Assembly (NCBI GenBank): GCA_945861465.1
Contig: CAMAVB010000034.1
Span: 1-44,587 of the forward strand
Length of the DNA: 44,587 nt
Reading direction: 5' to 3'
Source of the DNA: Candidatus Kuenenia stuttgartensis
Lineage (GTDB): Bacteria > Planctomycetota > Planctomycetia > Planctomycetales > Planctomycetaceae
The notes below the pieces were generated by a model. It ran no database searches. It was given only the letters and a program-made list of their open reading frames with translations, and had not been told where the DNA came from. Each line of letters starts with the position of its first letter. The stretch's first letter is position 1. This document shows, in pieces, positions 2,423 to 33,000 of this stretch. The position numbers were made by a program, and so were the translations under genes.

Positions 2423-2521
2423 CTGCAACGGAAGACAAAGAAAGGTGTTAACAACGCCTCACAACGCGCACCGGCCAGGGAATTCCTCCATGATTTCCAT
2501 GCGAAAACCCGAAAAACCGAA

Positions 2522-4826: not shown

Positions 4827-4827
4827 G

Positions 4828-8568: not shown

Positions 8569-8639
8569 GACGCTTTCTTGATCCCGCAATTCGTCATGGA
8601 TGTTCCGCAAAACGCCTCGGCAGCCGGTGGCCAACTTCG

Positions 8640-8974
8640 GGTTCAACGCCAAATGAAGTGCGCCCCGTAGAAATCCCGCTTCGTCCGATAGGATCCAACG
8701 ACTGGTGGATCTCCGGGTCAACGACTCTAATCCACCAATGCCAAGAGGTTCTTAACCACGAATGGACACGAATGGACACGAATGGACACGAATGGACACG
8801 AATAATTTCATTCAGAAGAATTGAAAACGCTGGAAATGTTCACATCACGACCGCACGGTTCAGAGTGGCTGAGCAGCAATTTGAATCTAACACTTTACCG
8901 GGCACTGCGACCATTCGTGTCAATTCGTGGTTCAATTGCCTTCCGTCTGCGCAGACTTCATTTGTCGTTGAGCC
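8640..8974 (-). repeat. MITE-like inverted-repeat element, copy A
   Basis: A 335-bp non-coding element. Its ends are inverted repeats: GGTTCAACGCCAAATGAAG at 8640-8658 and the complement of GGCTCAACGACAAATGAAG at 8956-8974. A second, inner pair is nested inside: CCACGAATGGACACGAAT from 8756 and ATTCGTGTCAATTCGTGG at 8913-8930. Its reverse complement aligns along its length with the element at 15868-16182, so the two copies are in opposite orientation. It encodes no protein; frames through the tandem part give low-complexity NHEWTRMDTN peptides. The nested arms and lack of genes fit a non-autonomous mobile element, but clear target-site duplications were not seen. Confidence 0.75.
8756..8803. 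repeat. Short tandem repeat, AATGGACACG x4
   Basis: Four perfect consecutive 10-bp units AATGGACACG occupy 8761-8800, preceded by CCACG and followed by AAT. The related element at 15868-16182 has fewer units at the equivalent place, so the array varies between copies. The unit is half of the inner inverted repeat, so the expansion probably arose by slippage inside the element. Confidence 0.85.
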
Positions 8975-10119: not shown

Positions 10120-10282
10120 CAGTATTCCTCTTCGTTCGACTGGAATATACTCCGCGCGGCCGGAAATGAGTCCGGCGAGCGGAGCGGCGTGAGCCCTCCG
10201 GTACCTCGTTTTTGTACCGGCAAGCTGACGCATGCCGCTCGCCAATTGTCTCACTCATGGCCGGGCGGAGTCTAAGTGCGCC

Positions 10283-13287: not shown

Positions 13288-14676
13288 TTAACTCCTTTCA
13301 GAGATCTGCGGAACACTTCTTAAGTCTTCGGCATCCCGCTCTATGGAAACTTCATTGTCGTATTCAGTCTTTGCTGAATCGCCGCTTGCTGCTGTCAATT
13401 TGCTTATACTCAATTGACTGTCCAGTTGAATCTTCGCTGAGATCAAGCGTGCCAGGTTTCCGACCATGGTTGGGTTGCCGGGAATCCGAATCATTCGCGG
13501 CGCATCACCCATCCAACCCTGAGTCCAAACAGGAAAGGGTGCATATCCAGCGATGATGGCAAGCTTCACCAGATAATCACCTGGGCACAACGGCACCGAA
13601 GGTATTTCCATTTTGACGTGATGTACTCCGAGCGGCAAGGACATTGCTTCACTAACGGACAAAGCAATGGCATTAGCGCTGGTGGTAGAAAAAAAAGTAA
13701 TCACGATCTGTGGCACCGGCGCGACTTCGCGCACTTCCACGGTCAGATCGACCACGATCGAACCTTTTGCGCCGCTGTTTTCCGGTTGGTGGTAGTAAAC
13801 CCCGGCTGTATGCACCTCAATTCGACCGCGAGTCTCCTGACCATTGGACGGCAGGAGGGCAGGCAATGGCGACCCCTCCGCGGCCTTCGCGGCCAATGCC
13901 TTGGTGGATTCTTTCTCGGCGGAATTGAAAAGCCGATCGATGGCATCGACCATCGAGCCTTCGAAAGTGATGCGGCCCCGTTCCAGGACGATGCCGCGAT
14001 CGCAGGCTGCCTGCATCTGCACGGGGTTGTGGCCCACAAAAATTACCGAACCCCCGCGTTCTCGAAATTCCTCGACGAAGCGCAAACACTTGTTCTGAAA
14101 GGCCAGATCACCGACTGCCAGCACTTCGTCCACCACTAACAGGTCAGGTTCACAGAGAGCGGCCACCGCGAAACCAAGGCGGGCCCGCATGCCGGTGCTG
14201 TAGTGCCGAACAGGACTGTCGATGAAGTCTCCGATGTCGGCGAATTCCACGATGCGGTCCAGTTGCGCTTGCCGTAAATCCGCGCCATAGCCGTGCATCA
14301 TTGCCTGGGGACGTAGATTCTCTCGGCCCGTTAGATTGGGAGCAAAGGCGGATCCAAGTTCGACGATCGCACCGATCCGGCCCGCCACATGAATTCTTCC
14401 TGCCGTCGGCTTGTAGATGCCGGTAATCAGTTTCAGCAGGGTGCTCTTGCCAGCTCCGTTATTTCCCAGGATGCCAACAGCTTCACCCCTTTTCAGGGAG
14501 AAGCTCACATTGCGAACAGCCCAGAATTCACCCGACCGCAGGGTTTGATCTTCCGGGAGCCCCGGCCGAAGCAGTTGGCGGAAGATGTCGCTCGCGGCAT
14601 ACCGCATGGACTGGCGCAGGCCCCGGGCGAAGCGCCTGCTGACATCCGTGACCTCGAGGAGAAGATTTGAGCTCAT
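13288..14676 (-). CDS. ABC transporter ATPase, Wzt-type, with C-terminal glycan-binding domain
   Basis: The nucleotide-binding subunit of a polysaccharide ABC exporter, 462 residues. Walker A is GNNGAGKST (71-79), the ABC signature region is YSTGMRARLGFA (159-170) and Walker B is LLVVDE (179-184). The sequence is of the KpsT/Wzt class. After a linker, residues about 285-405 form a predicted beta-rich domain (GVYYHQPENSGAKGSIVVDL through APFPVWTQGW), matching the extra Wzt domain that recognises the glycan terminus. A frame-opening codon at 14847 is rejected: the ATG at 14676 overlaps the permease stop as TGATG, and similarity starts there. It pairs with the permease at 14676-15455. The C-terminal domain implies export of a finished, end-capped polymer. 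Confidence 0.9.
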   Translation of the reverse strand: MSSNLLLEVTDVSRRFARGLRQSMRYAASDIFRQLLRPGLPEDQTLRSGEFWAVRNVSFSLKRGEAVGILGNNGAGKSTLLKLITGIYKPTAGRIHVAGRIGAIVELGSAFAPNLTGRENLRPQAMMHGYGADLRQAQLDRIVEFADIGDFIDSPVRHYSTGMRARLGFAVAALCEPDLLVVDEVLAVGDLAFQNKCLRFVEEFRERGGSVIFVGHNPVQMQAACDRGIVLERGRITFEGSMVDAIDRLFNSAEKESTKALAAKAAEGSPLPALLPSNGQETRGRIEVHTAGVYYHQPENSGAKGSIVVDLTVEVREVAPVPQIVITFFSTTSANAIALSVSEAMSLPLGVHHVKMEIPSVPLCPGDYLVKLAIIAGYAPFPVWTQGWMGDAPRMIRIPGNPTMVGNLARLISAKIQLDSQLSISKLTAASGDSAKTEYDNEVSIERDAEDLRSVPQISERS

Positions 14677-15455
14677 CAGTTGGCCGTCACAGCGAGATGT
14701 GGGCGGGCTACCCTCAGAACTGCAAAACCAAGGACCACGACCACGAACCCGAGCACGGTGGCGATCACCCCTTGAAACAAGAAGGTAGTTTCCCCGAGCA
14801 AAAGTTCGTCTCGAGCACCGACCAGCAAAACGGCGACAGGGTTCCACTCCACGATGGCGCGGGTCATTCCACTGGGCGGCAGAGCGTAAACAATAGGAAT
14901 CATAAAGAACATAATCTGGAGGCTTAATGCGAGGGCCCGCCCCACGTCTTCATAGAGCAGACCGAAAGGAGTCAGTACCAACCCTAATCCGCTTGCCAGA
15001 AGCAGAAGGCTTGCGATCCAGGGCAATGAAATCACGAGACCCCATCCACTAACGGATCCGGTGATCACGAGGATAACGACCAGCACCACCATGCTGACGG
15101 CAAATTCAATGATCGTCTCCGCCCATGCAGCAAGCACGAGTGCTTCCCAGGGAAATACATATTTGCTCAAAAGATGCCGGGATGCAGAAAGTTGGTTCAT
15201 GGAACTTTGAACCTGGCGTGTAAACCCTTGCCAGAGAAACATTCCTGTGGTGACATACGCGACATAAGAAGCAGGCCCATCGGCCGTTCCCAGATTACCC
15301 AGGCGTCTGATATAGATCCATGCGCCCGCCATCGCCAAAGGTGACAAAAGCAGCCAAATGTAGCCGAGTTTGCTGCCGCGATAGCGCGAAACCAGGTCGC
15401 GACAGAAGATCTGCCAGCTAAGGCGAGCAATATGCCTGAGTTCATTGGTCTTCAT
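14676..15455 (-). CDS. ABC-2 type permease for polysaccharide export (Wzm-like)
   Basis: The integral membrane subunit of the exporter, 259 residues, close to the family's usual length of about 260. It starts MKTNELRHIARLSWQIFCRDL, an amphipathic N-terminus, followed by SRYRGSKLGYIWLLLSPLAM at the first membrane segment. About six hydrophobic segments can be counted, and GMTRAIVEWNPVAVLL lies in the usual loop before the last helices. It would move a lipid-linked glycan across the inner membrane using the ATPase encoded directly after it (TGATG overlap). GGAG lies about 10 nt before the ATG. The first base of the frame overlaps the end of an unrelated small frame as ATGA. Confidence 0.88.
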   Translation of the reverse strand: MKTNELRHIARLSWQIFCRDLVSRYRGSKLGYIWLLLSPLAMAGAWIYIRRLGNLGTADGPASYVAYVTTGMFLWQGFTRQVQSSMNQLSASRHLLSKYVFPWEALVLAAWAETIIEFAVSMVVLVVILVITGSVSGWGLVISLPWIASLLLLASGLGLVLTPFGLLYEDVGRALALSLQIMFFMIPIVYALPPSGMTRAIVEWNPVAVLLVGARDELLLGETTFLFQGVIATVLGFVVVVLGFAVLRVARPHLAVTAN

Positions 15456-18726: not shown

Positions 18727-18894
18727 TGGTTGTGTCTCCTGCGAAAAACAAGATAAGTACCGTGTATCGGTGCGTGGTACAGAAATCCTGCACGATCCGC
18801 CCATCTCACTGAGCCGTCGTCAACGACGAGGCGATACGGAATGATATGATTGCCGGTGGTTGCCTTCAACCCGTTTCGGCGGTTCAGCGGAGCT

Positions 18895-19785
18895 TCATTC
18901 CGAGACATATCGTATGCGTTGAGAGGGTGAATTTCTGCGTCCCCATCCGTAAATGCAGGCACCTGGTACCAGTAAAAACAGCAGCAGACAAATTTGCCAT
19001 GGATTCAGAATGTGTTCACGGGCCAAGGAAATCACCACGGCAAGACGCTGGCGATTGGAGAGGGGTTTATGGGGCACCTCTCTTGCCAGGCATTCGTTGC
19101 TGCCACCATAAATTGCCTGCTTACGGTAGTAATCCATTGTGGTGGTAATTTCCAGATGATCGACGTGCATCTGTGAATTGAAACGCACTACTGATACGCC
19201 CAGTGAATGCACGACCTGCTGAACATAGATCGTATCCCCTCCGCGAAGCCGTTCCTGAAACAGCCCGAACTGATCAAACACTGATCGGCGAACGGCCATA
19301 TTATTTGTGTAGCCAAACACGTGTGACGGATTTCCTCCGGAAAGCACCCAGCAAATTTTCTTATTCTCATACGCCGCCAGGACGCGGAGCTGCACTTTGT
19401 TCGCAGCGAAGTTCCTGCTTCCGAGCGAGATCATGACTTCCGGGTCGCGCATCGACTCCTTCACCGCAGCAAGCCAGTTCAGCCTTGGACGACAATCCGG
19501 ATCCAGAAAGGCAATGATCTCACCACTGGTATGGCGAATGCCCAGATTGCGTGAGGCGTAAGATCCTCGCTTTGGCTGATGCAGTACACGAATACCCGAA
19601 AACGCCTGAGCAATCTCGACCGAACGATCCGTAGAACCATTGTCAACAACAACAATCTGGTCGTTCTCGGTCAGTCCTTCCTGGGCCAGAAGCGCCCTGA
19701 GAGTGTCCGCCAGAAAATCCTCCATATTGAATACAGGAAGGATCACTGAAACATTTGGTCGCGACTGCAAGATATCAGGACTCAA
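18895..19785 (-). CDS. GT2 family glycosyltransferase
   Basis: A 296-residue GT-A glycosyltransferase. Motifs include VSVILPVFNMEDFL, QIVVVDNGSTDRS and IIAFLDPDCRP, where DPDC replaces the usual DXD spacing. GGDTIYVQQVVHSLG occupies the acceptor/base region, with Asp-Thr where ED is common. A hydrophobic stretch near the C-terminus (PWQICLLLFLLVPGACIYG) suggests membrane association. The frame opens with TTG at 19785; the codons upstream include a stop and the next ATG lies inside the nucleotide-binding motif, so TTG is probably the true start although no Shine-Dalgarno sequence is visible. It lies 68 nt after the GT8-like gene in the same direction and could belong to the 19.8-28.8 kb operon. 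Confidence 0.82.
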   Translation of the reverse strand: MSPDILQSRPNVSVILPVFNMEDFLADTLRALLAQEGLTENDQIVVVDNGSTDRSVEIAQAFSGIRVLHQPKRGSYASRNLGIRHTSGEIIAFLDPDCRPRLNWLAAVKESMRDPEVMISLGSRNFAANKVQLRVLAAYENKKICWVLSGGNPSHVFGYTNNMAVRRSVFDQFGLFQERLRGGDTIYVQQVVHSLGVSVVRFNSQMHVDHLEITTTMDYYRKQAIYGGSNECLAREVPHKPLSNRQRLAVVISLAREHILNPWQICLLLFLLVPGACIYGWGRRNSPSQRIRYVSE

Positions 19786-19853: not shown

Positions 19854-21224
19854 TCAAAAATCGGTCGGATAAGAGGGGACGGTCTGGACCATTTCTTTTT
19901 TTTCCGCCCCCCCCAGAATCGATTCGACCCAGCGCCAGACTTCCCAGTTTCGATCACCCCAGTGGTGGTAGATGTGGACGAAGGCTGGCTCGATGACTGT
20001 CCGAAACTCGTCTACCGAAAATCCTATGCCAGCTTCGAAATCCGCACCCGTTTTGAACTGCAGACGATCCGAATGGTAATCAGCGATCAGATTGAATTTC
20101 GGATGCAGGACCGGATGATTCTGCAAACCGAACTTCCAAGCGGTCGCGATAAGTGTCCCCTGGTCCCGTGTCTGCCAGGCAGGGTCCGAAAACGTTTTGA
20201 TGGTCCAGGCATGCCAAGTGTCCAGAAATGAGTGAGAGGATCTGTCGAACAGAAAGACACCGCCATTCCAATGTTGCCATTGCGCGTCACGGACCGTCGT
20301 TCCAAATTTCACCTTGATTGCCTGACGCAGATGATCGCAGCAACACTTGTATACCAAAGCCCCGCCGGCACCATACCAAGTGTCAGTCACGGGGTCATAT
20401 CGGAATTCCGTATCGTGTTCGATTTGACTGACGACGTCTCGTTGAACTACAAATCCGTCCGAAGCGGTCCATGTCCGCGTGGTGGAGTCAAAGTCATATC
20501 CATGACTTGCGAGGAACTGTGCGTACTGCAGAGTTCTGAACGGCTTGCACTGTGCAAGGAATTGCCCATCTTCGTCAAGCCATTGATTACTCGCGCTATC
20601 GAGATTAAATCCGGTTCTTTTCCTGACAAAATCTGCCAGAGAACTCATCCATTTTCTTACACTGTGCCACTTTCTGATCGTGCGTGACAACAACATCATC
20701 TTCGACTCAAGAATGCGCCACCGTTCCTGAACACAACCAAGTTCCTTCTGCAGCATGTCCATACGCCTTGACGGCGGGATTCTGTATCGATTCAGGACGG
20801 ATTCGAAACGCTCGATTCCTGGACGCGCCTTTTCGCGACAACCACAACGCATGGCATAGGGGCTGAATTCTGGTAATCGGCAATGGTCCGCGACGAACGT
20901 AATGGGAGGGCACATCTGCTCGAAGATCTCATCGACTCCGGGGCGCACTGCAATGACGTCGCTGTCAAGGTAACAATACCGAGTGACGTCCCGTGGCAGG
21001 ATACGGTGCAGGGATGTCTTAAGAAAGATACTCGCCTGATGATCATTCATGTCCGCTGGTGTCCGCACGTCGATAACGACGTCATGCTCTACCGATTCCG
21101 AGGTGCGGGACGTGTCTGTCACAACGACGATTGGCTTGTTTGTAAATTTTCTCAGGTACTGCAGCGACAGATTGAGTGTCGTCACATGCTCAGCAGCACC
21201 ACAAACAACAAAGACATAGCACAT
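19854..21224 (-). CDS. GT8-like glycosyltransferase with an internal repeat insert
   Basis: A 456-residue protein with hallmarks of a retaining GT-A (GT8-like) fold. The N-terminus is CYVFVVCGAAEHVTTLNLSL; YCYLDSDVIAV gives the metal-binding DSD at 87-89; HWNGGVFLFDR (about 318-328) and DQGTLIATAW (about 354-363) match the acceptor and donor loops; HIYHHWGDRNW (about 417-427) matches the C-terminal H-x2-G segment. Between residues about 130 and 300 is an insertion with Lys/Arg-rich helices and three related units: FNLDSASNQWLDEDGQFLAQ, YDFDSTTRTWTASDGFVVQR and FRYDPVTDTWYGAGGALVYK. Each has aromatic-x-aromatic/Leu-Asp, then W, then G. The insert is not part of the normal GT8 core. It could bind glycan or a partner protein. 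The gene lies 105 nt after the asparagine-synthetase fusion. Confidence 0.7.
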   Translation of the reverse strand: MCYVFVVCGAAEHVTTLNLSLQYLRKFTNKPIVVVTDTSRTSESVEHDVVIDVRTPADMNDHQASIFLKTSLHRILPRDVTRYCYLDSDVIAVRPGVDEIFEQMCPPITFVADHCRLPEFSPYAMRCGCREKARPGIERFESVLNRYRIPPSRRMDMLQKELGCVQERWRILESKMMLLSRTIRKWHSVRKWMSSLADFVRKRTGFNLDSASNQWLDEDGQFLAQCKPFRTLQYAQFLASHGYDFDSTTRTWTASDGFVVQRDVVSQIEHDTEFRYDPVTDTWYGAGGALVYKCCCDHLRQAIKVKFGTTVRDAQWQHWNGGVFLFDRSSHSFLDTWHAWTIKTFSDPAWQTRDQGTLIATAWKFGLQNHPVLHPKFNLIADYHSDRLQFKTGADFEAGIGFSVDEFRTVIEPAFVHIYHHWGDRNWEVWRWVESILGGAEKKEMVQTVPSYPTDF

Positions 21225-21329
21225 CCAGACAGTTTCCCAAGAATCCCGGCCAGCCTGCTGTTTTCAGGCTGTCAGTCAGTAGTTATCGTGCGTCGAAAAT
21301 ACTCTTCAGCCGGTGGCGTAATCACCGAA

Positions 21330-24023
21330 TTACTGTGGATTCAGCTCGCGATAACGCTCTGCCCATTCGGCCTCCATGCAACTTCCCACAGGTTGGGGCA
21401 CAAATCGTTCAAGTGCCGCCGATTCGACGCTGACCCCTACAAAATCCACCGCCTGCCGCAAAGTCGCCTGGAAATCTCCGACAAGATCTTCGTAGGTGAA
21501 TTCGAGTGGACAAACACCGCTCCGATCGAAAAACGAACGCCAGCCTTCCTGTGCTTCCACGACTTTGTCGTAATAGAATTTGAGATTGTCGGACTTGAAT
21601 TCCGCGGTCTGTGTATCGCGCTGATCCGTGGCGTCTTCCGACCAGATTCCTGTCTGGGAAGCGCGTGACCACGCGGCGGCCTGTTGCAACGGGTCGCGAC
21701 GCGCCAACCAGATAAAACATGGATTTCCGAACGCGGCGTCGAGAATTTCCTTTTCGGACTTGCCTCTGAACTCGCGCAATCGTCGGAGGTTGGTGATAAC
21801 CTGAGTGAAATAAGTCCACATGAGTACCAGCCCAAAAGTCTCTCCACGTGTGCCAACAGCCCGCACGAGATCCAGGAACTGGTTAATCGTCCGCGGGGGC
21901 TGGCCTCCATGCATCTCGGGAACATTCTCATTTTCCAGCCACAACGGGCGTGAAGAATTCCAATTGTCACGGCCTCTGCATTGCAGGAACTCCTGTGGAT
22001 TTCCTGCCAGTCCGGTTTCGGCCAGTCCTCTGCTCAGCAGGCTCGCCCCCGCGCACTGTGCGCCGCAAATGATGTACGACTTCGCATGAACTTTTGTTTC
22101 CTCTTTGACGCCGGCACAAGACCGCGCGCCAGTCATGCTCCGGAAAACGGTCGTCAGTGAGAACCCATCCGTGCCATTCCAGATTGCTGCAGGGGATGGG
22201 CTACTGGTTCGGATTCGCATGGTTTCAATCTGTGGCTCGGACAGCGTCAGGCCCGGCTGCATCCAGCGTTGATACCAGAATTCGAGAACCATGATTTTCC
22301 ACAGTCGCCAGTGATCATTTGCGCGAATCAACTCATCCACATACTCCCGCCGAATGACATGGTCCTGCAGCAATCGCCCTTCTTTGATCACATTCGTGTA
22401 AAAGCCCGTATTCATATAGTAACGATTCGGTCCGACAAACCCCTGCTTCGGTCGGTCGATAATCGTCTTCGGAAGCACAGGCTCAAGAATGTGACGCAGT
22501 AGAACCTTGGTTTTCCCTGGATCGAAATACACCTGATCCTGCAATGAGATCACATACTCGAATAACTCGTGATCCAGAAACGGCACACGCACTTCGAGCG
22601 AATTTGCCATGCTCGCTCGATCAACTTTCGTCAGCACGAGCTCCGCCATGAAGGACTTAATGTCCAGATATTGCATTGATTTGACTGGAGAACTCTGCCC
22701 CTGGGAAAGTGATCGATACCACCAGTCGGAGTCCGTGCCGTCAGCCGGTGCAAGGTCAGGGTGCAGTAGCCTCCGGATTTCCGTATTCCGAAACCGGCCC
22801 ATTGCCATGTATTCGGCGTACTTATCGGCCGCCTGATTTGCAGCGTCCGCAGCATGTCCATTGCGAGGTCTCTGTGCCTGATCCAATGCGAATGCGCGTT
22901 GCCACCCGTATCCGCAAAACATTTCGTCGGCACCTTCCCCGGAAAGCACGGCCTTGACGGATTGGGAAGCGACCTGGCTGACGAGATAGGTGGGGATGAT
23001 GGAAATATCCGCAATCGGCTCGTCGTAGAAATACATGAGTTTCTCGACGAGGTTCAGGCTGCACTGATCAACAATATGATTTGTGTGCTCCGACTGAAGC
23101 GTCTGGGCTACCTGACTGGCATACTTATGTTCGCTGTCATCCCACCCTTCGAAGCCGATCGCAAACGTACGCCTTGGATATTCAAGCCGCTTCATGTACT
23201 GGACAAGAGCACTGGAATCGTATCCACCGCTGAGGAATGCACCAACGCGCACATCGCTGCGAAGATGCTCACAGACCGACTTTTCCAGCAGTTCGTCCAC
23301 ACGCTCTACTGCGATCCGTCGATCGACATCGACACCGGCATCGATTGGAAGACTCCAGTATTCGCGCACCGAAATCGTACCATCGTGCCGATGCAGCAGG
23401 TAGTTTGCAGGTGGCACTTTGAATACGTTGCGCCAGATCGTCCACGGGGTCGGAACAAAGCGATAGGCGAGATAGTCATGAATGGATTCGTACCTCAGCG
23501 ACCTCCGCATGCGTTTACTGGCGACGAGGGCTTTGATTTCTGAGGCAAACATGAACGTTGACGCATCGCGATAATAGTAGAGTGGCTTGATTCCGAATCG
23601 ATCCCTTGCCAGAAATAACTCCCGCCGGGATGTATCATAGATACCGATGGCGAACATCCCCTTCAGATGTGAAAGCACATCCGGACCCCATTCCTCGTAA
23701 CCGTGCAGGATCGTCTCAGTGTCCGAAGTTGAGCGAAACCGGTGCCCCTTTGCTTCGAGCCTGCTTCGCAACTCAACATAGTTGTAGATCTCCCCATTGA
23801 ACGTCAGCCAAAGAGTTCCATCTTCGTTCGGCATCGGCTGCTGCCCGGATTCCGAGAGGTCCAGAAACGATAGTCGCCGGTGGCCGAGGGCAACTTGTTC
23901 CGAGTCATCGAAGAAATTCCCGGCACCATCCGGTCCACGATGGCTAAGGGTGTCCCGCATGCGAACGAACTCTTCGCGGTCAATGATGCCACGGTAGCAG
24001 ATTTGGCCAATAATCCCACACAT
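21330..24023 (-). CDS. Asparagine synthetase (AsnB-type amidotransferase) fused to an Stf0-like sulfotransferase domain
   Basis: An 897-residue fusion. Residues 1-610 are a complete glutamine-hydrolysing asparagine synthetase: Cys2 as N-terminal nucleophile (MCGIIG), GHRRLSFLDLSESGQQPM, FNGEIYNY, FASEIKAL, the ATP-pyrophosphatase motif SGGYDSS (265-271) and SGEGADEMFCGYGW (361 onwards). ATG 24023 is required because Cys must follow Met; the frame opens nine codons earlier. Residues about 649-897 match the Stf0 family (trehalose 2-sulfotransferase type): SYIICGAQCAGASLLSRGL at the phosphosulfate loop, WLARRDPLQQAAAWSRA, TGIW and FTYEDLVGDF. The usual loop PRSGST is replaced by AQCAGAS, so PAPS binding is doubtful. 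AsnB-like enzymes in glycan loci often amidate uronic acids. This one may couple amidation with sulfation, or use the C-terminal domain only for binding. Confidence 0.88.
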   Translation of the reverse strand: MCGIIGQICYRGIIDREEFVRMRDTLSHRGPDGAGNFFDDSEQVALGHRRLSFLDLSESGQQPMPNEDGTLWLTFNGEIYNYVELRSRLEAKGHRFRSTSDTETILHGYEEWGPDVLSHLKGMFAIGIYDTSRRELFLARDRFGIKPLYYYRDASTFMFASEIKALVASKRMRRSLRYESIHDYLAYRFVPTPWTIWRNVFKVPPANYLLHRHDGTISVREYWSLPIDAGVDVDRRIAVERVDELLEKSVCEHLRSDVRVGAFLSGGYDSSALVQYMKRLEYPRRTFAIGFEGWDDSEHKYASQVAQTLQSEHTNHIVDQCSLNLVEKLMYFYDEPIADISIIPTYLVSQVASQSVKAVLSGEGADEMFCGYGWQRAFALDQAQRPRNGHAADAANQAADKYAEYMAMGRFRNTEIRRLLHPDLAPADGTDSDWWYRSLSQGQSSPVKSMQYLDIKSFMAELVLTKVDRASMANSLEVRVPFLDHELFEYVISLQDQVYFDPGKTKVLLRHILEPVLPKTIIDRPKQGFVGPNRYYMNTGFYTNVIKEGRLLQDHVIRREYVDELIRANDHWRLWKIMVLEFWYQRWMQPGLTLSEPQIETMRIRTSSPSPAAIWNGTDGFSLTTVFRSMTGARSCAGVKEETKVHAKSYIICGAQCAGASLLSRGLAETGLAGNPQEFLQCRGRDNWNSSRPLWLENENVPEMHGGQPPRTINQFLDLVRAVGTRGETFGLVLMWTYFTQVITNLRRLREFRGKSEKEILDAAFGNPCFIWLARRDPLQQAAAWSRASQTGIWSEDATDQRDTQTAEFKSDNLKFYYDKVVEAQEGWRSFFDRSGVCPLEFTYEDLVGDFQATLRQAVDFVGVSVESAALERFVPQPVGSCMEAEWAERYRELNPQ

Positions 24024-24077
24024 GGACGGCACCAGGATTCTTACGAGCACTTAGGAATCAGCGTAGCGCTGAATTCT

Positions 24078-25136
24078 TCAAGGGATGGATCGATCGGTTG
24101 CCCCGAAAGTCAGCCAGTGGGTTCTGGTCGGCATGACGTTGGTGCGAATAACCACAAGATCACGTCTGAATTTTGCGATCAGCCACGGAAACATGCAGAA
24201 ATGTGCGGCAATCAGGACAAGTGATTCAGGCCGCGCCATCGCGAGGACAACGAGTGCCGTGAGCGGCAGCCACTCCTCATAAAAATCGTTCATGAAATAA
24301 AGGAACTTGAACCATCGCTTCCGAATCGAAAGTGAAGGTACTCTCCAGATGCTGAATTTCAGACAGGTGAATATGAGAAATCCGATGAATCCTGCGTAAA
24401 GTGGCAGGTGATAGGTGGCGAGAAGTACGAGCAGCGCTGAGAGACTCAGAATTTCGAGTGGAAGAATCACATAATTGATCGCCTTGATTGTTCTCAGCGG
24501 CCCCATCTTGAGCACAAGAGTTCTGACTCCGGCTTTGCGGTCTTTGGATCGGTCGTTGACCTGATGCGTTGCAATATTTCTGAGCCCTTTGCATACCAGC
24601 CAGGGCAGCAGGAAGGCGTAAAAGGTCCAGGACTGCAGGCGGGAATGGTCGTCGTTAAATGTAGCGACGGTCACCACGATTGGGATCAGATGTCCATACA
24701 ACATGTCGCAGATAAGGCCCCACTGACTTCGCTCCTTGAGCCGAAAGGGCGGACACGAGTAAGAGACGAATGCCACATACTGCAACACCATGAAGGTCAT
24801 GTTGGTGGAATTACGGGGTAACGCAATCCACGGAGCCCAGGAACAAACCAGCAGCAGGAAAGCAATTCCGACTCGTTGCTGAGGCGACAAACCCGCAACC
24901 CGGTTCGGCTTTCCTGCTTCTGCATCCTGTTCAATGTCGCTCCAGTCGTTCAGAAAATAGCCGAACGCAGCGGTCGCGATGATTGTCAGTGTGAACCAAA
25001 CCAGTCGAATCACCGCTGTTTTCAGGGGGGCTGTCGACGCGCAGATCGACAAATAGACAAACCCATACATGGGCGGAATAATATATCGCCACCACATCGC
25101 GAACCGCGGTAAGAATGAATGGACAGTGACAGCCAA
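24078..25136 (-). CDS. UbiA-superfamily prenyltransferase
   Basis: A polytopic membrane prenyltransferase of 352 residues with about eight or nine hydrophobic helices. Both Asp-rich motifs that bind the Mg-diphosphate of the prenyl donor are present: NDWSDIEQDAEAGKPNR (N63, D64, D67, D71) and HQVNDRSKDRKAGVR (D195, D199). It would transfer a polyprenyl chain to an aromatic, sugar-phosphate or other acceptor within the membrane. Its loops look closer to uncharacterised UbiA proteins and DPPR-synthase-like members than to menaquinone or haem enzymes, but that is impression only. The frame opens with TTG at 25136; ATG 25097 is an alternative, and neither has a clear ribosome-binding site. The polyprenyl-synthetase homologue in the same run (27831-28811) is a natural source of its donor. 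Confidence 0.85.
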   Translation of the reverse strand: MAVTVHSFLPRFAMWWRYIIPPMYGFVYLSICASTAPLKTAVIRLVWFTLTIIATAAFGYFLNDWSDIEQDAEAGKPNRVAGLSPQQRVGIAFLLLVCSWAPWIALPRNSTNMTFMVLQYVAFVSYSCPPFRLKERSQWGLICDMLYGHLIPIVVTVATFNDDHSRLQSWTFYAFLLPWLVCKGLRNIATHQVNDRSKDRKAGVRTLVLKMGPLRTIKAINYVILPLEILSLSALLVLLATYHLPLYAGFIGFLIFTCLKFSIWRVPSLSIRKRWFKFLYFMNDFYEEWLPLTALVVLAMARPESLVLIAAHFCMFPWLIAKFRRDLVVIRTNVMPTRTHWLTFGATDRSIP

Positions 25137-25273
25137 GGGAAGGCCCCCGAAAAAAAGTTGGCAGCAATGAACCGACTGTTGCTCCGGTGGCTGTTCGTTT
25201 TCGAATCTCTTTTGCGGCGAGGGTGAATCGGCGAGATTCGTGCAATTCGCTCACGTGGTGGAGCGATCCAGCT

Positions 25274-26887
25274 TCAGACCAGCCGATCCAAAACAGCCTC
25301 GATCTCTTCTGCCAGGGTCTCAACCGGCATGGCAGCCAACCAGCGCATTGTTCCCGATACACCTCGGACAAGCTGGGTCTCTACAACTTTCTCATTGGCA
25401 CTGTGCTGGCTTGCCACCGCAGCGGCGATTTTGACTTTGGTGGTAAAATCAAGACGATCTGCTTCTGTGGACTGGCGCTGCGTGGTCAGGTAGGCTGTCC
25501 CCAGGGCATCAAAGTAGGCCCCGATAAAAGTGACGGCATCCAGTTTTTCAGCCACCTCGACCAAATACGGACCTAAGTCCGCGTCCAGATTGTGGGCATT
25601 GGCATTTGGCGGCAAGTCTCCGGACTCCGGCAGCTCAAGAAATATTGTGAAAACGCGTTTCAGATGCGCTGTCGCCGCTTCAGAAATGTTGTCAGCTTCC
25701 AGGAGACTCTTCCGAGAGTCTTCCAAAGAGGCAGCCATGTCGGTCATCACACGTTTCAGTTGACACGAACGATGCTCCCTCTCTGCCGCTTCCTTCTGCC
25801 ATTGAACGACCTGATTGATCACATTGCGAAACCTCGAAACGTTCTGCCTTTCCAGAGCATCCGCCGAAGGGATGGTTTTCGATTCCCATCTTGCAATAAT
25901 CCTGTCCAGCTCCGCAGCACTCAGGGCCGAAAGTGAACAGGTGTCCGGATAGTACACGGTATTGAAATAGATGCCGATTCTGTTCTGGTTACAGTACGCG
26001 ACAATGTCAGGCATTTCCTGCCAGTTCTGCTGCATAGGACAAACGGCAAAGCTCATCGTACGAGAGTTCTGTCTTGAGTACTCCTGCAGAGTCGCCAGAT
26101 TCGCCATCACCGTCTCAAAAACCGCGTTCGGACGAATCGACTCAAACGTTGCACGCTGCATGCTGTCAATCGAAATGATCGGAAACACCTGGAGCGAATC
26201 CAGAAGCTCCCGGGCCCAGTGCGTCAATGTTGTCCCGTTTGTTGTTACGTAGACCTTGATGTCCGGATTAATCACGCGGATACGTTCCCAGATCTCGTGA
26301 TACATTCGAATCAGGAACGGCTCACCGCCAAAGAACTTTGCGACACGCAGGTGAGGCAGGAACTCGTCTAATTGGTCAACGAACCCGCTGTCATACGGGG
26401 AATGCAGGGGAGCCAGCATTTCACGGTTGCGTCGTATCGCCGAAGACCAATAGCCTCCACACATGATGCACTCAAGATTGCAGGTGTTCGTCAACGAGAA
26501 CTCGAACTGTAGCGGCATTGGCACGTCACCTTGATTGGAGGCACCCTTTCCGCTGTCGGCCAATGAGTCAAAGACACTCATCTGGCCTGTAAAATTTCCG
26601 CTCTGCAACTGGTGGGCGCAGGACTGGCACCCGCCACCCAGGTCATTTTCCCGGATGTATTGCCGCAACGCCCGCGCTTTATCGCCAAACCACATTGAGC
26701 GAATAGAGTCCTGAGGCCAGGTACCCAGCACATGAGTGGTATTATAGCAGCACGCGACGGCGTTTCCGCTTTGGTTAAAATAGATGTTACGAAACGGAGC
26801 ATGGCAGAGGATGCCTGTATCGGCCGTCTGTCGTACCGCGTTGTATTTATCGACCACGGGTTGCGAAATAATGTGACTGCTTACCAT
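25274..26887 (-). CDS. Radical SAM protein with N-terminal SPASM/twitch-like cysteine domain
   Basis: A 537-residue radical SAM enzyme. The core cluster motif is CNLECIMC (C136, C140, C143), followed by FFGGEPF as the glycine-rich SAM motif and KVYVTTNGTTL. Upstream is a Cys-rich region: C28 in HAPF context, C46-C47 in AVACCYN, and C87/C90 in GGCQSCAHQ, as in SPASM/twitch modules that hold an auxiliary [4Fe-4S] cluster. SPASM usually follows the radical SAM core; here the Cys-rich part comes first. The last 200 residues are helical and unrecognised. ATG 26887 has AAGGA 5-6 nt upstream and is preferred over the longer frame starting at 26956, which overlaps the sulfotransferase gene. The substrate could be a peptide or a sugar; no candidate precursor peptide gene was found nearby. 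Confidence 0.85.
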   Translation of the reverse strand: MVSSHIISQPVVDKYNAVRQTADTGILCHAPFRNIYFNQSGNAVACCYNTTHVLGTWPQDSIRSMWFGDKARALRQYIRENDLGGGCQSCAHQLQSGNFTGQMSVFDSLADSGKGASNQGDVPMPLQFEFSLTNTCNLECIMCGGYWSSAIRRNREMLAPLHSPYDSGFVDQLDEFLPHLRVAKFFGGEPFLIRMYHEIWERIRVINPDIKVYVTTNGTTLTHWARELLDSLQVFPIISIDSMQRATFESIRPNAVFETVMANLATLQEYSRQNSRTMSFAVCPMQQNWQEMPDIVAYCNQNRIGIYFNTVYYPDTCSLSALSAAELDRIIARWESKTIPSADALERQNVSRFRNVINQVVQWQKEAAEREHRSCQLKRVMTDMAASLEDSRKSLLEADNISEAATAHLKRVFTIFLELPESGDLPPNANAHNLDADLGPYLVEVAEKLDAVTFIGAYFDALGTAYLTTQRQSTEADRLDFTTKVKIAAAVASQHSANEKVVETQLVRGVSGTMRWLAAMPVETLAEEIEAVLDRLV

Positions 26888-26943
26888 TGTGTTCCTTTTT
26901 CGAGCGTCCTGGTTCAATCGGTCGGATGGCCGGTCGGCAGGTA

Positions 26944-27792
26944 TCAAAGACTCCACTTCTCAAACCGATTGCCCGTCAAAGTGCGCAGCCGATCGACGTC
27001 GTCTTTGAGGCAATCGACAAGGCGCTGCCTCAATACAGGAGTCAAACAAGGCTTCACCACCGGGTAGGAAAAATACGGGTAGAACATTGGGCACAGGCCG
27101 TCGCACAGAAACCGTGGCAGCGACTCCCTGCGGCCCCACGCCCAATTGCCGAGAGCACGTTTCAGGAGTCGCACCATCCAGATGGGGCGGCGATAGACGC
27201 TGGACGGATGATGAATCCTTGAAAAACCGGGACTGACAAAGAATTCATCGACTCCAAGGAAACGAAAAATCTTTCCCAGAGTTTGCTGTGGGTCTGCCTG
27301 TAAGTCATCGAGGCTCACAATGCAGATATTCTGCTCTTTGAAAATCGAAAGGTATTGCTGAATCTGCAGGTAGTATTTGCTTCGGCAGACAAGAACGTTG
27401 GTCTCATCCAGGTTGTGCAGGGCGTCTGTAATGTCTCGATCTTCCATCCCACGACCATAGTCCATGACGTAGTGCGAGATGATCCGCTGGATGGGGTCCC
27501 GTACCAAATACAGTAACTTTGCATCCGGAACGACTGCGTGCATTCGTTCCGGTACGCCGGCATGCTCAGGCCAACTGGCGTAGAGAGGTGAGGCTTCACC
27601 GCGCTGCGGGGCGGAAGAGCCGAAGTTCGACTCGTACCAATCGATTCCCCGCAACCAGTTTTTTTCCTGAATGAAGAAATTCAGCTCCTTCTCACGCGAC
27701 ATGAAGATCTGCGGATGGAGCATCAGATAATTATATAAACTGGTCGTCCCGGCCTTCTGGGCACCAACGACGATGAAATTGGGCAGTGCCAT
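26944..27792 (-). CDS. Sulfotransferase (PAPS-dependent, Sulfotransfer_1-like)
   Basis: A 282-residue cytoplasmic sulfotransferase. The 5'-phosphosulfate loop GAQKAGTTSLYNYL (about 10-23) is intact, as are KELNFF, LLYLVRDPIQRIISHY (the 3'-phosphate region) and VSLDDLQADPQQTLGKIFRF near residue 160. The type resembles heparan-sulfate N-deacetylase/sulfotransferase-like and bacterial carbohydrate sulfotransferases. It would transfer sulfate from PAPS to a sugar or lipid hydroxyl or amine. The ATG at 27792 has only a weak GGAA upstream. It lies 38 nt after the polyprenyl-synthetase homologue and 56 nt before the radical SAM start, in one direction, so the three are probably co-transcribed. Unlike the sulfotransferase at 8980-10119 and the domain at 21330-24023, this one keeps all expected motifs. 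Confidence 0.9.
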   Translation of the reverse strand: MALPNFIVVGAQKAGTTSLYNYLMLHPQIFMSREKELNFFIQEKNWLRGIDWYESNFGSSAPQRGEASPLYASWPEHAGVPERMHAVVPDAKLLYLVRDPIQRIISHYVMDYGRGMEDRDITDALHNLDETNVLVCRSKYYLQIQQYLSIFKEQNICIVSLDDLQADPQQTLGKIFRFLGVDEFFVSPGFSRIHHPSSVYRRPIWMVRLLKRALGNWAWGRRESLPRFLCDGLCPMFYPYFSYPVVKPCLTPVLRQRLVDCLKDDVDRLRTLTGNRFEKWSL

Positions 27793-27830
27793 GCAGTGAT
27801 TCCGCTTTCGATGTGCCGGCGCGTGGCACC

Positions 27831-28811
27831 TCAGTATCGAAGTTTGCTTAGAACTCTTCCCAGCGACTCAGGCAATTCGAGGCACGCACCGAGCCTGGCA
27901 AGTTCTCTGTCAAGCCTCGATTCGATGCGTGCCTGTCCCCGATCACCAACGACAGAAATGAGCTGGACTGCGATTTTTCGCAGCGGGAGTGTTTCGCCGG
28001 TGGACTGACCAAGCTGTTGCTGAAGTGCAGACAACTCCGTCCCTGAGATGATCTTTGTCGCCCATGCCCACGGCCAGGTCACGCGCAGGTTTCGCAGGTC
28101 GTCCGATCTTTCGTCGCCGTTTGCAAATCTTCTCAGTTCGAGCAGATCGTTAAACATCTGAAGGCACATCCCGACCCCCGCCCCGAATCGGGAAAGCGCG
28201 CGACGAGTTTCACGCGGGGCGTTTGCAGCGGTTGCTCCCAGCCAGGCGGCCAGTTCCGTTATTCCGCCAGTCTTGAGGCGACTGATCGCCTGAGCCGTGG
28301 GATAGATCTCTTCCGGAGACAGCAAGTCAATTCGCGCTGACAAATCAAGTGCCTGGCCTTCATGGCAACGAAGAATCGTACGTGTCGTCACCTCCAGAAT
28401 TCGATGCCGCGTCCGGGAGTTGAAAGGTGACGTCGCCAACTTGTCGAAAGCCTGAAAATACATCCAGTTGCCCGTGTTCAGGGCCAAAGGAATCCCAATT
28501 TCACGATGAAGTGTGGGTTTGCCGCGCCGCTCGTTCGAGTCATCTTCGATGTCATCAATGATCAGGGAACCGGCATGAAGAAGCTCTATCGCCTCCGAGA
28601 TGGCACGCGGTGCATCCCCCGAGCCGCCGGAAACTCGGAACAACTCATTGACCAATTCCGCTCGAATCCCTTTCCCACTGCGAGACAGGAATTGCTTTAC
28701 AGGATCGTTGAGTCCCTGATCCCACAAGCGTTGTGGCACGGAGTGATGTAAACGCTCATGTGGCGTGGAATTCTGGGCATCTGTTGCTAAAAACAAATGG
28801 TCACTCATCAT
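27831..28811 (-). CDS. Polyprenyl synthetase family protein
   Basis: A 326-residue all-helical trans-prenyltransferase homologue, near the family's usual 320-350. The first Asp-rich motif is intact (LIIDDIEDDSNERRGKP, DDIEDD at 86-91). The usual GGKRxRP start is SGKGIRA (45-51). The second Asp-rich motif, normally DDxxD, reads NDLLE (221-225), so two of its metal-binding acids are altered. The protein may extend a prenyl chain with changed kinetics or stop at a short product; loss of activity is also possible. ATG 28811 is given; the adjacent ATG 28808 has better spacing to GAGGAG. It is the first gene of the 19.8-28.8 kb minus-strand run and faces a divergent gene across about 400 nt. Confidence 0.88.
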   Translation of the reverse strand: MMSDHLFLATDAQNSTPHERLHHSVPQRLWDQGLNDPVKQFLSRSGKGIRAELVNELFRVSGGSGDAPRAISEAIELLHAGSLIIDDIEDDSNERRGKPTLHREIGIPLALNTGNWMYFQAFDKLATSPFNSRTRHRILEVTTRTILRCHEGQALDLSARIDLLSPEEIYPTAQAISRLKTGGITELAAWLGATAANAPRETRRALSRFGAGVGMCLQMFNDLLELRRFANGDERSDDLRNLRVTWPWAWATKIISGTELSALQQQLGQSTGETLPLRKIAVQLISVVGDRGQARIESRLDRELARLGACLELPESLGRVLSKLRY

Positions 28812-29217: not shown

Positions 29218-30909
29218 ATGACAATTAGACAGAGTCCCGGTTCAAAAAAAAAACCTGAGCTGGCTGCCAATTCCGGCGAGATATTCAGCGTGCCGTCAGG
29301 AGTGTTTTCGGGAGTCTGGGGGCAGGTTTGTCTGCTTTTCGCGGCTTGGGGAATTCTGTGCAGCCTGAACTGGACGAACGACGGCCTCTGGTTCCAGGGA
29401 GACGCCCCACGGCACGCAATTAACGGGTTATTCTGGAAGGATCTGCTGCACGAGGGGTGGCAGCAGCCAGACGACTATGCCCGGCGTTATTATGCCCGGT
29501 ATCCCACAATCTGCCCGACCGCTTATCCACCTGTCTTCTATTTGGTGGAGGCTGCGGGCTTCTCGATGTTCGGGCCTTCACCTTTCGTCGCCAAGTGGCT
29601 GGTGCTGGCATTCGCGCTGTTTGCCGGAATTTATACTCTGTTATGGTTGAGACGGTGGATCGAGCCGGCTGCGGGCGTCGTCGCCGGACTACTGCTGCTG
29701 ATGCCAGGCATAAGAGACTGGTCACATGCTGTGATGTTGAATGTTCCGGCGATGGCGTTCGGCGTGGGAGCCCTTTACCACAGCCGACGGGGGTTGGAAT
29801 TGCCGTACGACGGAGGCAGTTCGCGGCATTTAGCGATCGGCGTGGCGCTGGCTACGCTCGGAATCCTGACACATCCGACGCTGTGTACAGCAGTATTCAT
29901 AGGCTTGGCATGGATGTTGGCCCTTGGACGTTGGCGAATTCTGACAAGACCGAATATTCTGTGGCTTGCAGTTGCCTGCTCGGTCGTTCTGATACCTGCT
30001 TTCTTTGCAATTTATCACTTTGCACCACGACAGTTTGCACAGTTGTCTCCTCCGGCGGGACGCGAGATCGGGCTGTGGAGTTCAATGAAATATGTCGGAG
30101 CGCATTGCGTGCTGCCCATGGCGGGTTCTGTTGTTCTGGTTTCCGCAGCCGTCGGTCTGCTGGCGGGGCTTGCCCGCCCCCGCTGGCGTCGAGAGTCGGT
30201 CGTGGCTCTGCTCTGGATCGGGGTTCCCAGCTTTCTCTTGTCCTGCATTTGGGCCAAAGATGTTCGTTACTTGCTCATCGCCTGCCCAGCCCTCGTGTGT
30301 CTGATCGCCATTGCAGCGCTTTCGGCTTCCAGGTGGCTGTCGCATTGGGGTTGGCCGCGCCTCGCGCGGCTTGCTTTTGCCAGTCTGTTGGGAGGCCTCG
30401 CCCTGGCCAGCACCATTTCCGCACACCGCGCACCGCCGCCATCGATCAGCGGTTTTGTCGAGGTTGTAAGGTACATGGAGCAGGTCGCCCCGTCGGAACC
30501 CGTTTTTTACGAAGGACTTCTGGATGGCGTCTACACATTCCATCTGCGGGCCGATGACTCCAAATTCCAGCGACAAGTGGTTTTGGTTCGAAAATGGATT
30601 GTCGATGGTGCCAGGAAACCAATGACTTCCCAAGCGATTGGCGACAAAATCCTTTCATCTGGCTGTCGCTGGCTGGTCATGGAAATTCCCAGACCTATAC
30701 ACGAAACACTCCTGCTGGCGAAGCTGCGCGACGTTATCCGCCGGGAAGAGTTCGAGTTGGTGCGGACATTTCCGATGCCGAAAAGAGTTCTGCAACGCGT
30801 TGAAGTTTACCGAATTCGTAGTCCTTCAAGTAAACGCCTGGTCTCTCCCCCCGTCTTCGACCTGCCGCAGGAAGTTTTCGGTGGAACCGTCGATCCAATT
30901 CGCCGATGA
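29218..30909 (+). CDS. GT39/ArnT-like membrane glycosyltransferase
   Basis: A 563-residue polytopic protein of the GT-C (PMT/ArnT) type, which transfers a sugar from a polyprenyl-phosphate donor on the periplasmic side. After the first helix, GDAPRHAINGLFWKD holds the acidic motif expected in the first periplasmic loop. About ten more hydrophobic segments follow, with THPT and KDVRYLLIACPA near typical positions. The last 140 residues form a soluble domain (PVFYEGLLDGVYTFHLR and onward). An N-terminal Lys-rich stretch precedes the first helix. ATG 29218 has no clear ribosome-binding site. A C-terminal remnant of a paralogue lies at 2522-2809. The prenyl-chain genes across the divergent promoter region could supply a related lipid carrier; this link is inference. 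Confidence 0.82.
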   Translation: MTIRQSPGSKKKPELAANSGEIFSVPSGVFSGVWGQVCLLFAAWGILCSLNWTNDGLWFQGDAPRHAINGLFWKDLLHEGWQQPDDYARRYYARYPTICPTAYPPVFYLVEAAGFSMFGPSPFVAKWLVLAFALFAGIYTLLWLRRWIEPAAGVVAGLLLLMPGIRDWSHAVMLNVPAMAFGVGALYHSRRGLELPYDGGSSRHLAIGVALATLGILTHPTLCTAVFIGLAWMLALGRWRILTRPNILWLAVACSVVLIPAFFAIYHFAPRQFAQLSPPAGREIGLWSSMKYVGAHCVLPMAGSVVLVSAAVGLLAGLARPRWRRESVVALLWIGVPSFLLSCIWAKDVRYLLIACPALVCLIAIAALSASRWLSHWGWPRLARLAFASLLGGLALASTISAHRAPPPSISGFVEVVRYMEQVAPSEPVFYEGLLDGVYTFHLRADDSKFQRQVVLVRKWIVDGARKPMTSQAIGDKILSSGCRWLVMEIPRPIHETLLLAKLRDVIRREEFELVRTFPMPKRVLQRVEVYRIRSPSSKRLVSPPVFDLPQEVFGGTVDPIRR

Positions 30910-31091: not shown

Positions 31092-32717
31092 TCACGCCTG
31101 TGCGGGCAACGTGACTTCTTCAACCAATTGCACGTGTACCGTGTCATCATGGGCGGATGTTGGTCGGCAGGTTTCTCCAACGGAGATCTCGGACTCGATC
31201 TCGACGCCGATCGATCGTTCTGGGCCCACCGCAATGTGCAAACCTGAAAGCACCTTAACTTCAGCAGTCCGATCTTCCTCAGCTTCACCGGCACGGATTT
31301 CCTCGTGATATTCCTGCTCGGTATTGACCGCCCACAGGTCGTGGTTTTCACCCTGCAACAGGTTCCGCACGGCCAGCATGCCAGTGAGCATGGTGTGGTC
31401 CTGGTTGTTGTAACGATGCAGGCCGTTGCGCCCGATCGTCTGCAGGTTCTCCAGCCCCTCCACATACTCGCGCAGGATCGTCAGGTGTTCCCGATAGGCA
31501 GCATCATAAACCGGGTATGACTTTTCCACCCGGAACACGCAGCCGTCCACGATGTCGGCGCAGTTGGCCAGGCCCAGTCGGTCCACCTCGCGCTTTCCCA
31601 GTTCAACCAGTTCCTGGTCCGACATATTCCAAATCTCGTCACCCTGGTTGCAAAAGTACTCCAGCCCCAGACTACTCTGGTCCGGATTTGGCACCATGTC
31701 CGGACTCCAATTCCCATAGTTCTGAATCCGCCCGACTTTGACCTGTGGATCGTGGATGTAGATCCAGTTGTCATCAAAAAGATCAGGATGGTTGACGATC
31801 AGGCAGACCGTGAGGAAGTCCCGGTACTTTAATTCGCCCGCCGCCAGAATGACGTGGTCAGGAGCTGGTGGATCGAGCTTTCTGACCAACTCGGTCAGCG
31901 GCATGCTGGAAATGAAATCCGTGCCCTCGACGGGCAGCTCCCGACCGTGTTCCGTAATGATCACACGATCGATGCGGTTCCCGGTCCGTTCAATGCGCAC
32001 GACGTCAGATTCCATCCTGACCTTGCCGTCGCGGTCCCGGATTCTGGCAGCCACCGCACGCCACATCATGCCCGGTCCCAATCGTGGATAGTGGAATAGC
32101 TCGATCAGTGTCTTGATGTTCTTGTCCGGCCTGCGAAACATATTCAAAACGGCGGTTTTCAGCGATAGCCCCTGGATCCGCTGTGCCGCCCACTCGGCCC
32201 TCAACTCCGTGCAGGGAATGCCCCAGACCTTTTCGGTGTACGTCTTAAAAAACGTCTCGAACAACCGCTTGCCGAAGCGATTGGTCACCCAATGTTCGAA
32301 CGTTTCCTCCACCGGATGGGGGAACGCTTTCCAGCGCAGACAGCTGATTGTGATCAGCAGACTTTCCCACAATCCCAAGCTCAGCAGCGTGTTCAGCGGC
32401 TTGAGCGGATAATCAAAGAACCGCTGCCGATAGTAGATCCTGGACATCCGATCCCGTTCAACAAAATCATCGACGAGTATCTTCTGCCAAAACGCTTCTA
32501 CTGCCTGTGACTTGGTGAAGAATCGATGTCCGCCCATGTCGAAATGGAAGCCGCGATAAGACTCGGTGCGGGACAGTCCACCTACGATCGGCGCTTTCTC
32601 AAGCACCGTGGTGCTGACGCCTTGAACTACCAACTCGTGGGCAGCAGTCAGGCCAGCAGGACCACCCCCGATGACGACGACGTTTCGATGATCGAGGTTA
32701 AAGAAACTATTCAGCAT
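31092..32717 (-). CDS. FAD-dependent oxidoreductase, UDP-galactopyranose-mutase-like
   Basis: A 541-residue flavoprotein. The dinucleotide-binding motif is VVVIGGGPAGLTAAHEL, followed by VLEKAPIVGGLSRTESYRG and FDMGGHRFFTK, as in UDP-galactopyranose mutase and related FAD/NAD(P)-binding amino-oxidase proteins. FFKTYTEKVWGIPCTEL and YPRLGPGMMW are characteristic later segments. Such proteins occur in many polysaccharide loci and may isomerise or oxidise a nucleotide sugar, but the exact reaction is not set by motif. About 65 residues after the normal end (from GEAEEDRTAEVKVL) are acidic and rich in Val and Thr, an unusual tail. ATG 32717 is chosen because it lies just before the FAD motif; the frame opens at 32774. 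It is convergent with the GT39-like gene. Confidence 0.82.
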   Translation of the reverse strand: MLNSFFNLDHRNVVVIGGGPAGLTAAHELVVQGVSTTVLEKAPIVGGLSRTESYRGFHFDMGGHRFFTKSQAVEAFWQKILVDDFVERDRMSRIYYRQRFFDYPLKPLNTLLSLGLWESLLITISCLRWKAFPHPVEETFEHWVTNRFGKRLFETFFKTYTEKVWGIPCTELRAEWAAQRIQGLSLKTAVLNMFRRPDKNIKTLIELFHYPRLGPGMMWRAVAARIRDRDGKVRMESDVVRIERTGNRIDRVIITEHGRELPVEGTDFISSMPLTELVRKLDPPAPDHVILAAGELKYRDFLTVCLIVNHPDLFDDNWIYIHDPQVKVGRIQNYGNWSPDMVPNPDQSSLGLEYFCNQGDEIWNMSDQELVELGKREVDRLGLANCADIVDGCVFRVEKSYPVYDAAYREHLTILREYVEGLENLQTIGRNGLHRYNNQDHTMLTGMLAVRNLLQGENHDLWAVNTEQEYHEEIRAGEAEEDRTAEVKVLSGLHIAVGPERSIGVEIESEISVGETCRPTSAHDDTVHVQLVEEVTLPAQA

Positions 32718-33000
32718 GCAGTCATCACTTTCCGCGGACGCTTCGCTTTCGAGGATCTCGCCAAAGCGGATCAAGCAACCATCAAGGGACGCTGTTTTGG
32801 CCTGTGGCCTTCACTTGCCGCGAAAGGGGGGGCGATGATTTGATGAACTTTCAGCAAGATCATTGCGCACCCTAGGCGCAAACTTCGTTCTTCTGGGTAG
32901 CCACATCGCTCCCAGCAGAATTGTTCGAATTTCCAGGAGGGCCAGAGTAGACACGGCAATTTTGCGTTGCAACACAACTGAACTGTAAAAATGAAAATAG

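Follow-up and report, generated by a model that had tools for sequence, protein, structure and literature searches.

What product would be made by a run of genes that combines a polyprenyl diphosphate synthase, a sulfotransferase, a radical S-adenosylmethionine (SAM) protein, a UbiA-type prenyltransferase, an AsnB-Stf0 fusion and a GT8-like glycosyltransferase (GT)? Six such genes lie in succession on the minus strand of a 44,587-nucleotide stretch of DNA from Candidatus Kuenenia stuttgartensis (contig CAMAVB010000034.1, positions 1 to 44,587; hereafter, the window), where an earlier note had proposed them as an undescribed biosynthetic cluster. Coordinates and domain scans confirmed the six genes and the GT2 gene beside them, at the positions and with the families claimed. 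Approximately 1.3 to 32.8 kb of the window is one glycan locus with an ATP-binding cassette (ABC) exporter, which encloses the six-gene set. We put at about even the chance that the six genes form a tailoring module, with prenyl, amide, radical SAM and sulfate steps, inside this locus. On our best reading, the product would be a glycan or glycolipid that is sulfated and carries a prenyl or terpenoid group and an amidated, radical-SAM-modified sugar. No literature on this gene combination or its product was found in open-licence papers, in agreement with the note, which knew of no described pathway that combines these families.

Recurrence of the gene association

The earlier note had looked to Planctomycetota for recurrence of the set, and there the expectation failed. 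The GT8-like gene occurs in 1 of 170 genomes of the window's family and, by profile, in 1 of 384 of its phylum, in both cases only the window's own genome; UbiA relatives occur in 3 of 170 family genomes and 2 of 392 phylum genomes, the own genome counted. Since both genes are so rare there, the module is accessory within this phylum.

A plasmid search returned four UbiA relatives, including one in Methylomagnum ishizawai (L010), whose plasmid holds five of the six module families together. The order is prenyl synthase, twitch radical SAM protein, AsnB, UbiA and a GT8-GT4 fusion, followed by an ABC permease and ATPase, a methyltransferase and a PhyH protein, with a sulfotransferase past two transposases. 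Upstream lies a flavin adenine dinucleotide (FAD) enzyme with 52% identity to the FAD enzyme of the window.

Next, species genomes were scanned with the GT8 alignment, and 25 loci were recovered, each titled as Bacteroidota; the scan used two peptide patterns, so the 25 are not exhaustive, and Methylomagnum was not returned. Some loci are short contigs (L029, L035 and L041) and others are cut, so that absences mean "not in view." In view were a twitch radical SAM gene in 17 loci, AsnB in 12, UbiA in 9 and UbiA with AsnB in 7. UbiA, AsnB, radical SAM and GT8 genes stand together in five loci (L031, L032, L034, L037 and L051), of which L031 and L032 nearly duplicate each other (tree branches 0.11); GT8 genes and layout are also near-equal in L043, L045 to L048 and L050. 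Sulfotransferases were searched in these loci with nine seed sequences, and prenyl synthases with a two-sequence model in the loci and with Pfam in 14 of the genomes. Genome searches for radical SAM, UbiA (in the phylum of L034) and the GT8 profile scored the best few first-pass candidates per genome.

In 14 of the GT8-locus genomes, chosen after their neighborhoods had been seen and holding 10 of the 12 AsnB loci, there are two to five Asn_synthase copies each, or a chance of about 2% per locus. At this even-spread rate, approximately 0.5 of the 25 loci would be expected to hold AsnB, against the 12 seen. No P value is drawn from these genomes, given how they were chosen. AsnB genes often sit in polysaccharide loci and the null spreads the copies evenly, so this excess is overstated; nevertheless, with near copies and glycan-locus clustering allowed for, AsnB beside GT8 in 12 of 25 loci is well above chance. 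Overall, the gene association is recurrent beyond chance in Bacteroidota and one gammaproteobacterium. The proposed six-gene cluster therefore stands as a recurrent association (five of six families in Methylomagnum, four of six in 5 of the 25 Bacteroidota loci) but not as a free-standing unit, because the same strand runs on into the transferases and the ABC pair of the glycan locus.

Among viral contigs, 49 stretches matched a GT8 pattern and none was confirmed, and a phage search with the radical SAM protein gave two weak Vibrio phage matches (24% identity). At L033:67-6477 and L036:450-7916, five and six PhyH dioxygenase genes, respectively, follow one another next to genes for UbiA, GT8 and radical SAM proteins.

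Class of the UbiA protein and its relatives

The window UbiA has the UbiA fold by fold comparison and carries NDxxDxxxD plus the clade signature HQxxDxxxD, which is present in 21 of 21 UbiA sequences. Residues N63, D64, D67 and D71, together with D195 and D199, are invariant in nine UbiA sequences. According to PMC11127046, phosphoribose-lipid synthases have an RxxE motif (R366 and E369) where the window UbiA has DxxxD, its second Asp motif. A HAD-linked UbiA in L070 reads KRFAEYR at this motif II, and its PRK12324 matches extend down to 2.6e-16. The window UbiA gives no PRK12324 match at an E value of 0.1, and one of nine clade members matches weakly (0.0014). Another UbiA of the window genome (L054) has a motif I resembling that of the HAD-linked UbiA. 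By its motifs, the window UbiA looks like a prenyl-diphosphate enzyme. The HAD hydrolase and the adjoining PRK12324-like UbiA at L070:14199-15934, close to an HQ-motif UbiA, look like a phosphoribose-lipid donor pair.

A neighboring UbiA group comprises eight loci, five of which (L006, L012, L068, L069 and L071) encode a cyclase-like protein of approximately 340 to 380 residues. DxDD is the motif of class II cyclases, and it is found in this protein, with DxDN in L071; its profile matches drimenol synthase, AstC and squalene-hopene cyclase. In L072, a Pyr4-like cyclase gene adjoins UbiA, and no cyclase was seen in L005, where UbiA lies at the contig end, or in L070. P450s are present in L006 and L068, sulfotransferases adjoin the cyclase in L006, L012 and L068, and every locus of the eight except L072 has a conserved GT4 gene no more than about 5 kb from UbiA. 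The same cyclase-like family occurs in L027, which combines the GT8/AsnB set with the cyclase and whose UbiA is the nearest to that of the window (39%). On a Nostoc plasmid it is fused to UbiA (L011:14137-17793; PhyH, UbiA, class II cyclase-like and TPR parts). The strongest hint that chains attached by these UbiAs are later handled as terpenes is the presence of UbiA and a cyclase-like domain in one polypeptide. Overall, the related UbiA loci suggest that an acceptor is prenylated and that, in some of them, the prenyl part is cyclized. A separate fusion, on an Oscillatoria plasmid (L009:14257-17583), joins methyltransferase, UbiA and PhyH parts.

The glycan locus and the other module genes

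The features of the locus are listed in Table 1. Past the GT2 gene, the minus strand continues with a second sulfotransferase, a PhyH dioxygenase, a methyltransferase, the ABC pair, and GT4 and GT2 genes; the other flank holds a GT-C gene and the PRK07208 FAD enzyme. Glycosyltransferases, an ABC-2 permease and an ATPase thus occur in one locus, as in ABC-transporter-dependent surface polysaccharide loci, with which the window also shares the GT2/GT4 set and the long C-terminal part of the ATPase. It differs from them in the added UbiA/AsnB/radical SAM/GT8 module.

Table 1. Coordinates and supporting evidence for genes of the glycan locus in the window
Feature	Position	Strand	Evidence
Polyprenyl diphosphate synthase, nearest geranylgeranyl diphosphate synthases	27831..28811	-	PF00348 6.9e-41; best PDB sequence matches
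Sulfotransferase	26944..27792	-	PF13469/PF00685
Radical SAM protein, N-terminal twitch/SPASM domain	25274..26956	-	PF04055, PF13186; CxxxCxxC present
UbiA-family intramembrane prenyltransferase, HQxxDxxxD clade	24078..25136	-	Motifs, fold
AsnB-type glutamine amidotransferase/synthetase fused to Stf0 sulfotransferase domain	21330..24050	-	PF13537, PF00733, PF09037
GT8-fold glycosyltransferase	19854..21224	-	YLDxD motif; model with GT8 fold
GT2 glycosyltransferase	18895..19785	-	PF00535 2.2e-29
GT-C type membrane protein (PMT_2)	29218..30909	+	PF13231 28.1 bits
FAD oxidoreductase, PRK07208 family	31092..32774	-	NF005548 675 bits
ABC-2 type permease	14676..15455	-	PF01061; matches permeases of related loci by hidden Markov model (HMM)
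ABC ATPase, long C-terminal part, probable internal start	13288..14847	-	PF00005
SAM methyltransferase	12384..13283	-	PF08241; HMM
Tandem PhyH (Fe/2-oxoglutarate) dioxygenase	10493..12358	-	PF05721, two stretches
Second sulfotransferase	9274..10254	-	PF13469 1.4e-17
Double GT4 glycosyltransferase	6049..8721	-	Pfam scan
GT4 glycosyltransferase	4828..6042	-	Pfam scan
GT4 glycosyltransferase	3591..4856	-	Pfam scan
GT2 glycosyltransferase	1337..2428	-	Pfam scan

Within the module, the prenyl synthase has an intact first Asp motif (DDIED). The radical SAM gene has an alternative start at ATG 26887, and its product scores 156.9 bits against NF033640, below the curated cutoff of 170, which the Methylomagnum homologue passes (174.4). 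The AsnB-Stf0 fusion is a single unbroken frame with a likely start at ATG 24023 (MCGI), and it has the catalytic Cys2 and the synthetase loop SGGYDSS of AsnB-type proteins. Six of the nine Bacteroidota AsnB genes compared share this loop, against SGGVDSS in Methylomagnum, and it possibly marks a substrate-specific AsnB subfamily. The Stf0 fusion was not found in 12 Bacteroidota AsnB genes beside GT8, two of them C-terminal fragments, nor in the Methylomagnum AsnB. The protein at 19854 to 21224 has no Pfam or NCBIfam match, and its predicted model has a GT8-type GT-A fold with DxD; in the fold comparisons of this protein and of UbiA, a family missing from the match list is not thereby excluded.

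Among the flanking genes, the GT-C protein shows a local match (40% across 73 residues) to a GT39 gene of the Methylomagnum locus, and the methyltransferase belongs to a family shared with the one adjoining UbiA in L030 to L033 and L036. A large thioredoxin-like protein with a weak heme-binding match is encoded on the minus strand between the ABC pair and GT2 (16432-18804) and has no evident role in a glycan locus.

A putative tailoring pathway and the points against it

In the pathway we propose, UbiA would take the chain of a prenyl diphosphate, which probably comes from the linked synthase, and attach it to an acceptor particular to this locus; a glycan or glycoside intermediate is the likeliest one. 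A sugar from a nucleotide donor would be added by the GT8 enzyme. AsnB-type proteins make uronamides in O-antigens, and the AsnB domain might convert a carboxylate to an amide with glutamine, most simply on a uronic acid. The twitch radical SAM enzyme may oxidize, epimerize or otherwise alter a sugar, the sulfotransferases would add sulfate, and the ABC transporter would export the product. The enzyme families, motifs, genomic recurrence and UbiA class are read from sequence; we infer the acceptor, the order of the steps, the chain length, and the export and sulfation of this product.

Several observations weigh against this reading. Some concern the proteins themselves. The second Asp motif of the prenyl synthase is degenerate (NDLLE), so its activity is only putative. 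The Stf0 nucleotide loop, usually RSGSTLL, reads CAGASLL, which is unusual, and the domain may be altered or inactive. PDB fold matches separate UbiA classes poorly, the fold being common to all UbiA structures, and no class II cyclase of the family described above was found in the window. Others concern distribution. Prenyl synthase is present in 0 of the 25 Bacteroidota GT8 loci, and 13 of 14 searched genomes have one elsewhere; a sulfotransferase was found in 1 of 25 by the seeded search, and UbiA is not in view in 16 of 25. The six nearest radical SAM relatives elsewhere in the sample of the window's phylum stand without the module. A UbiA-profile search of 345 genomes of the phylum of L034 gave six matches, one being L034 itself; in the other five loci, GT8, AsnB and radical SAM genes are all out of view, which speaks against a fixed module.

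The genes do not look jointly inherited either. Pairwise identities of UbiA, AsnB and GT8 over eight loci (six for radical SAM) showed no significant positive correlation, and the AsnB-GT8 correlation was negative (rho -0.61); the genes thus look swapped, and the module was probably not inherited as one unit. AsnB, radical SAM and GT8 genes occur with UbiA not in view in L039, L041, L042 and L044 (L039, L041 and L044 are truncated at AsnB). In L028, L033, L036, L040, L043, L045, L046 and L050, a GT8 gene and a radical SAM gene occur with AsnB not in view. The prenyl synthases of the window and Methylomagnum differ in the first motif (DDIED versus DDLPVMD) and match only in part (28%), and hence look like two separate recruitments. 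The association is probably modular, with GT8, radical SAM and AsnB acting on the glycan and UbiA as an added step. The prenyl synthase and sulfotransferase are outside the recurrent core. Accordingly, the earlier proposals that the first and fourth genes build the prenyl part and that the set includes sulfation hold in part: the UbiA looks to be of the prenyl-diphosphate type and the sulfotransferase family is confirmed, but neither the synthase nor the sulfotransferase belongs to that core.

Alternative explanations

The best-surviving alternative, which we regard as possible although doubtful, is that the ABC pair exports a free glycosylated meroterpenoid or phosphoglycolipid-like product and not a modified polysaccharide. 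The moenomycin pathway includes an AsnB-type enzyme and a radical SAM step, and its MoeO5 is a PcrB-like prenyl-phosphoglycerate synthase; merosterolic acid, with MstE, belongs to the bacterial meroterpenoid pathways. In PMC13096315, the moenomycin amidotransferase acts on a galacturonate of a prenyl-bearing oligosaccharide, and the window resembles that pathway in its putative prenyl chain, its glycosyltransferases and a possible amidation of a uronate. This likeness is one of roles; the window has UbiA in place of MoeO5, besides sulfotransferases and an ABC-2 exporter. Bacterial meroterpenoid clusters, such as that of zigralone and other Pyr4-like cyclase pathways (PMC13307353), share a UbiA, a polyprenyl synthase and a methyltransferase with the window. 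With the related UbiA loci, where sulfotransferase genes also adjoin, they share P450s and cyclases of the class II or Pyr4-like kind. Nevertheless, the window has a UbiA but no cyclase of these kinds, and the 30 open reading frames of the window scanned with Pfam (smaller frames lay outside the scan) gave no aromatic or indole core gene, no aromatic- or polyketide-forming gene and no PcrB match. Without these defining features, the window is filed under neither pathway, and moenomycin membership is rejected. Glycosyltransferases, AsnB, sulfotransferases and the ABC exporter dominate the window, and the presence of several GT genes alongside an ABC-2 permease and its ATPase suits a long glycan better.

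An improbable explanation is that UbiA is a polyprenyl-phosphate phosphoribose synthase in an ordinary variable polysaccharide locus with no prenylated product. A pentofuranose side chain would then be added through the GT-C protein that flanks the module, in a three-component system, and the AsnB, sulfotransferase and radical SAM proteins would decorate sugars. O-antigen loci with such systems (UbiA phosphoribose-lipid synthase, flippase and GT-C) exist, as PMC11127046 describes, and the window likewise has UbiA-family and GT-C genes in an ABC-exporter glycan locus. However, neither a HAD phosphatase nor a MATE flippase was found among the scanned frames, and the DxxxD motif II, the PRK12324 result and the HAD-linked-like motif I of another UbiA of the genome all speak against it. 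Pentofuranose donor synthesis is weakened, if not rejected, by motif II.

Still less probable is that the module makes a lipid carrier or anchor reserved for the locus' own glycan: two bacteria have a prenyl synthase linked to UbiA in an exporter locus, but the recurrent loci lack the synthase and often UbiA in view, no priming sugar-phosphate transferase was found among the scanned frames, and cyclases beside related UbiAs are ill-suited to a linear carrier. The prenyl glycan carrier suggested earlier is without specific support, the related UbiA loci pointing to acceptor prenylation.

Implications

We advance only tentatively, as rather unlikely, that bacteria of several phyla make terpenylated, amidated, radical-SAM-modified, sulfated and exported glycans or glycolipids through an HQ-motif UbiA. 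On that reading, a partner class II cyclase would cyclize the chain in some lineages, and the window would be an uncyclized version. Searches of the open-licence literature gave no description of an exported bacterial glycan covalently decorated with a prenyl or terpenoid group. The UbiA signature of this clade, linked as it is to class II cyclases, gives a prediction that can be checked across many genomes, and products may be sought by way of the UbiA/AsnB pair. Finding UbiA among polysaccharide genes does not by itself imply pentofuranose donor synthesis, and this locus points to terpenylated, amidated and sulfated glycans as its putative product.
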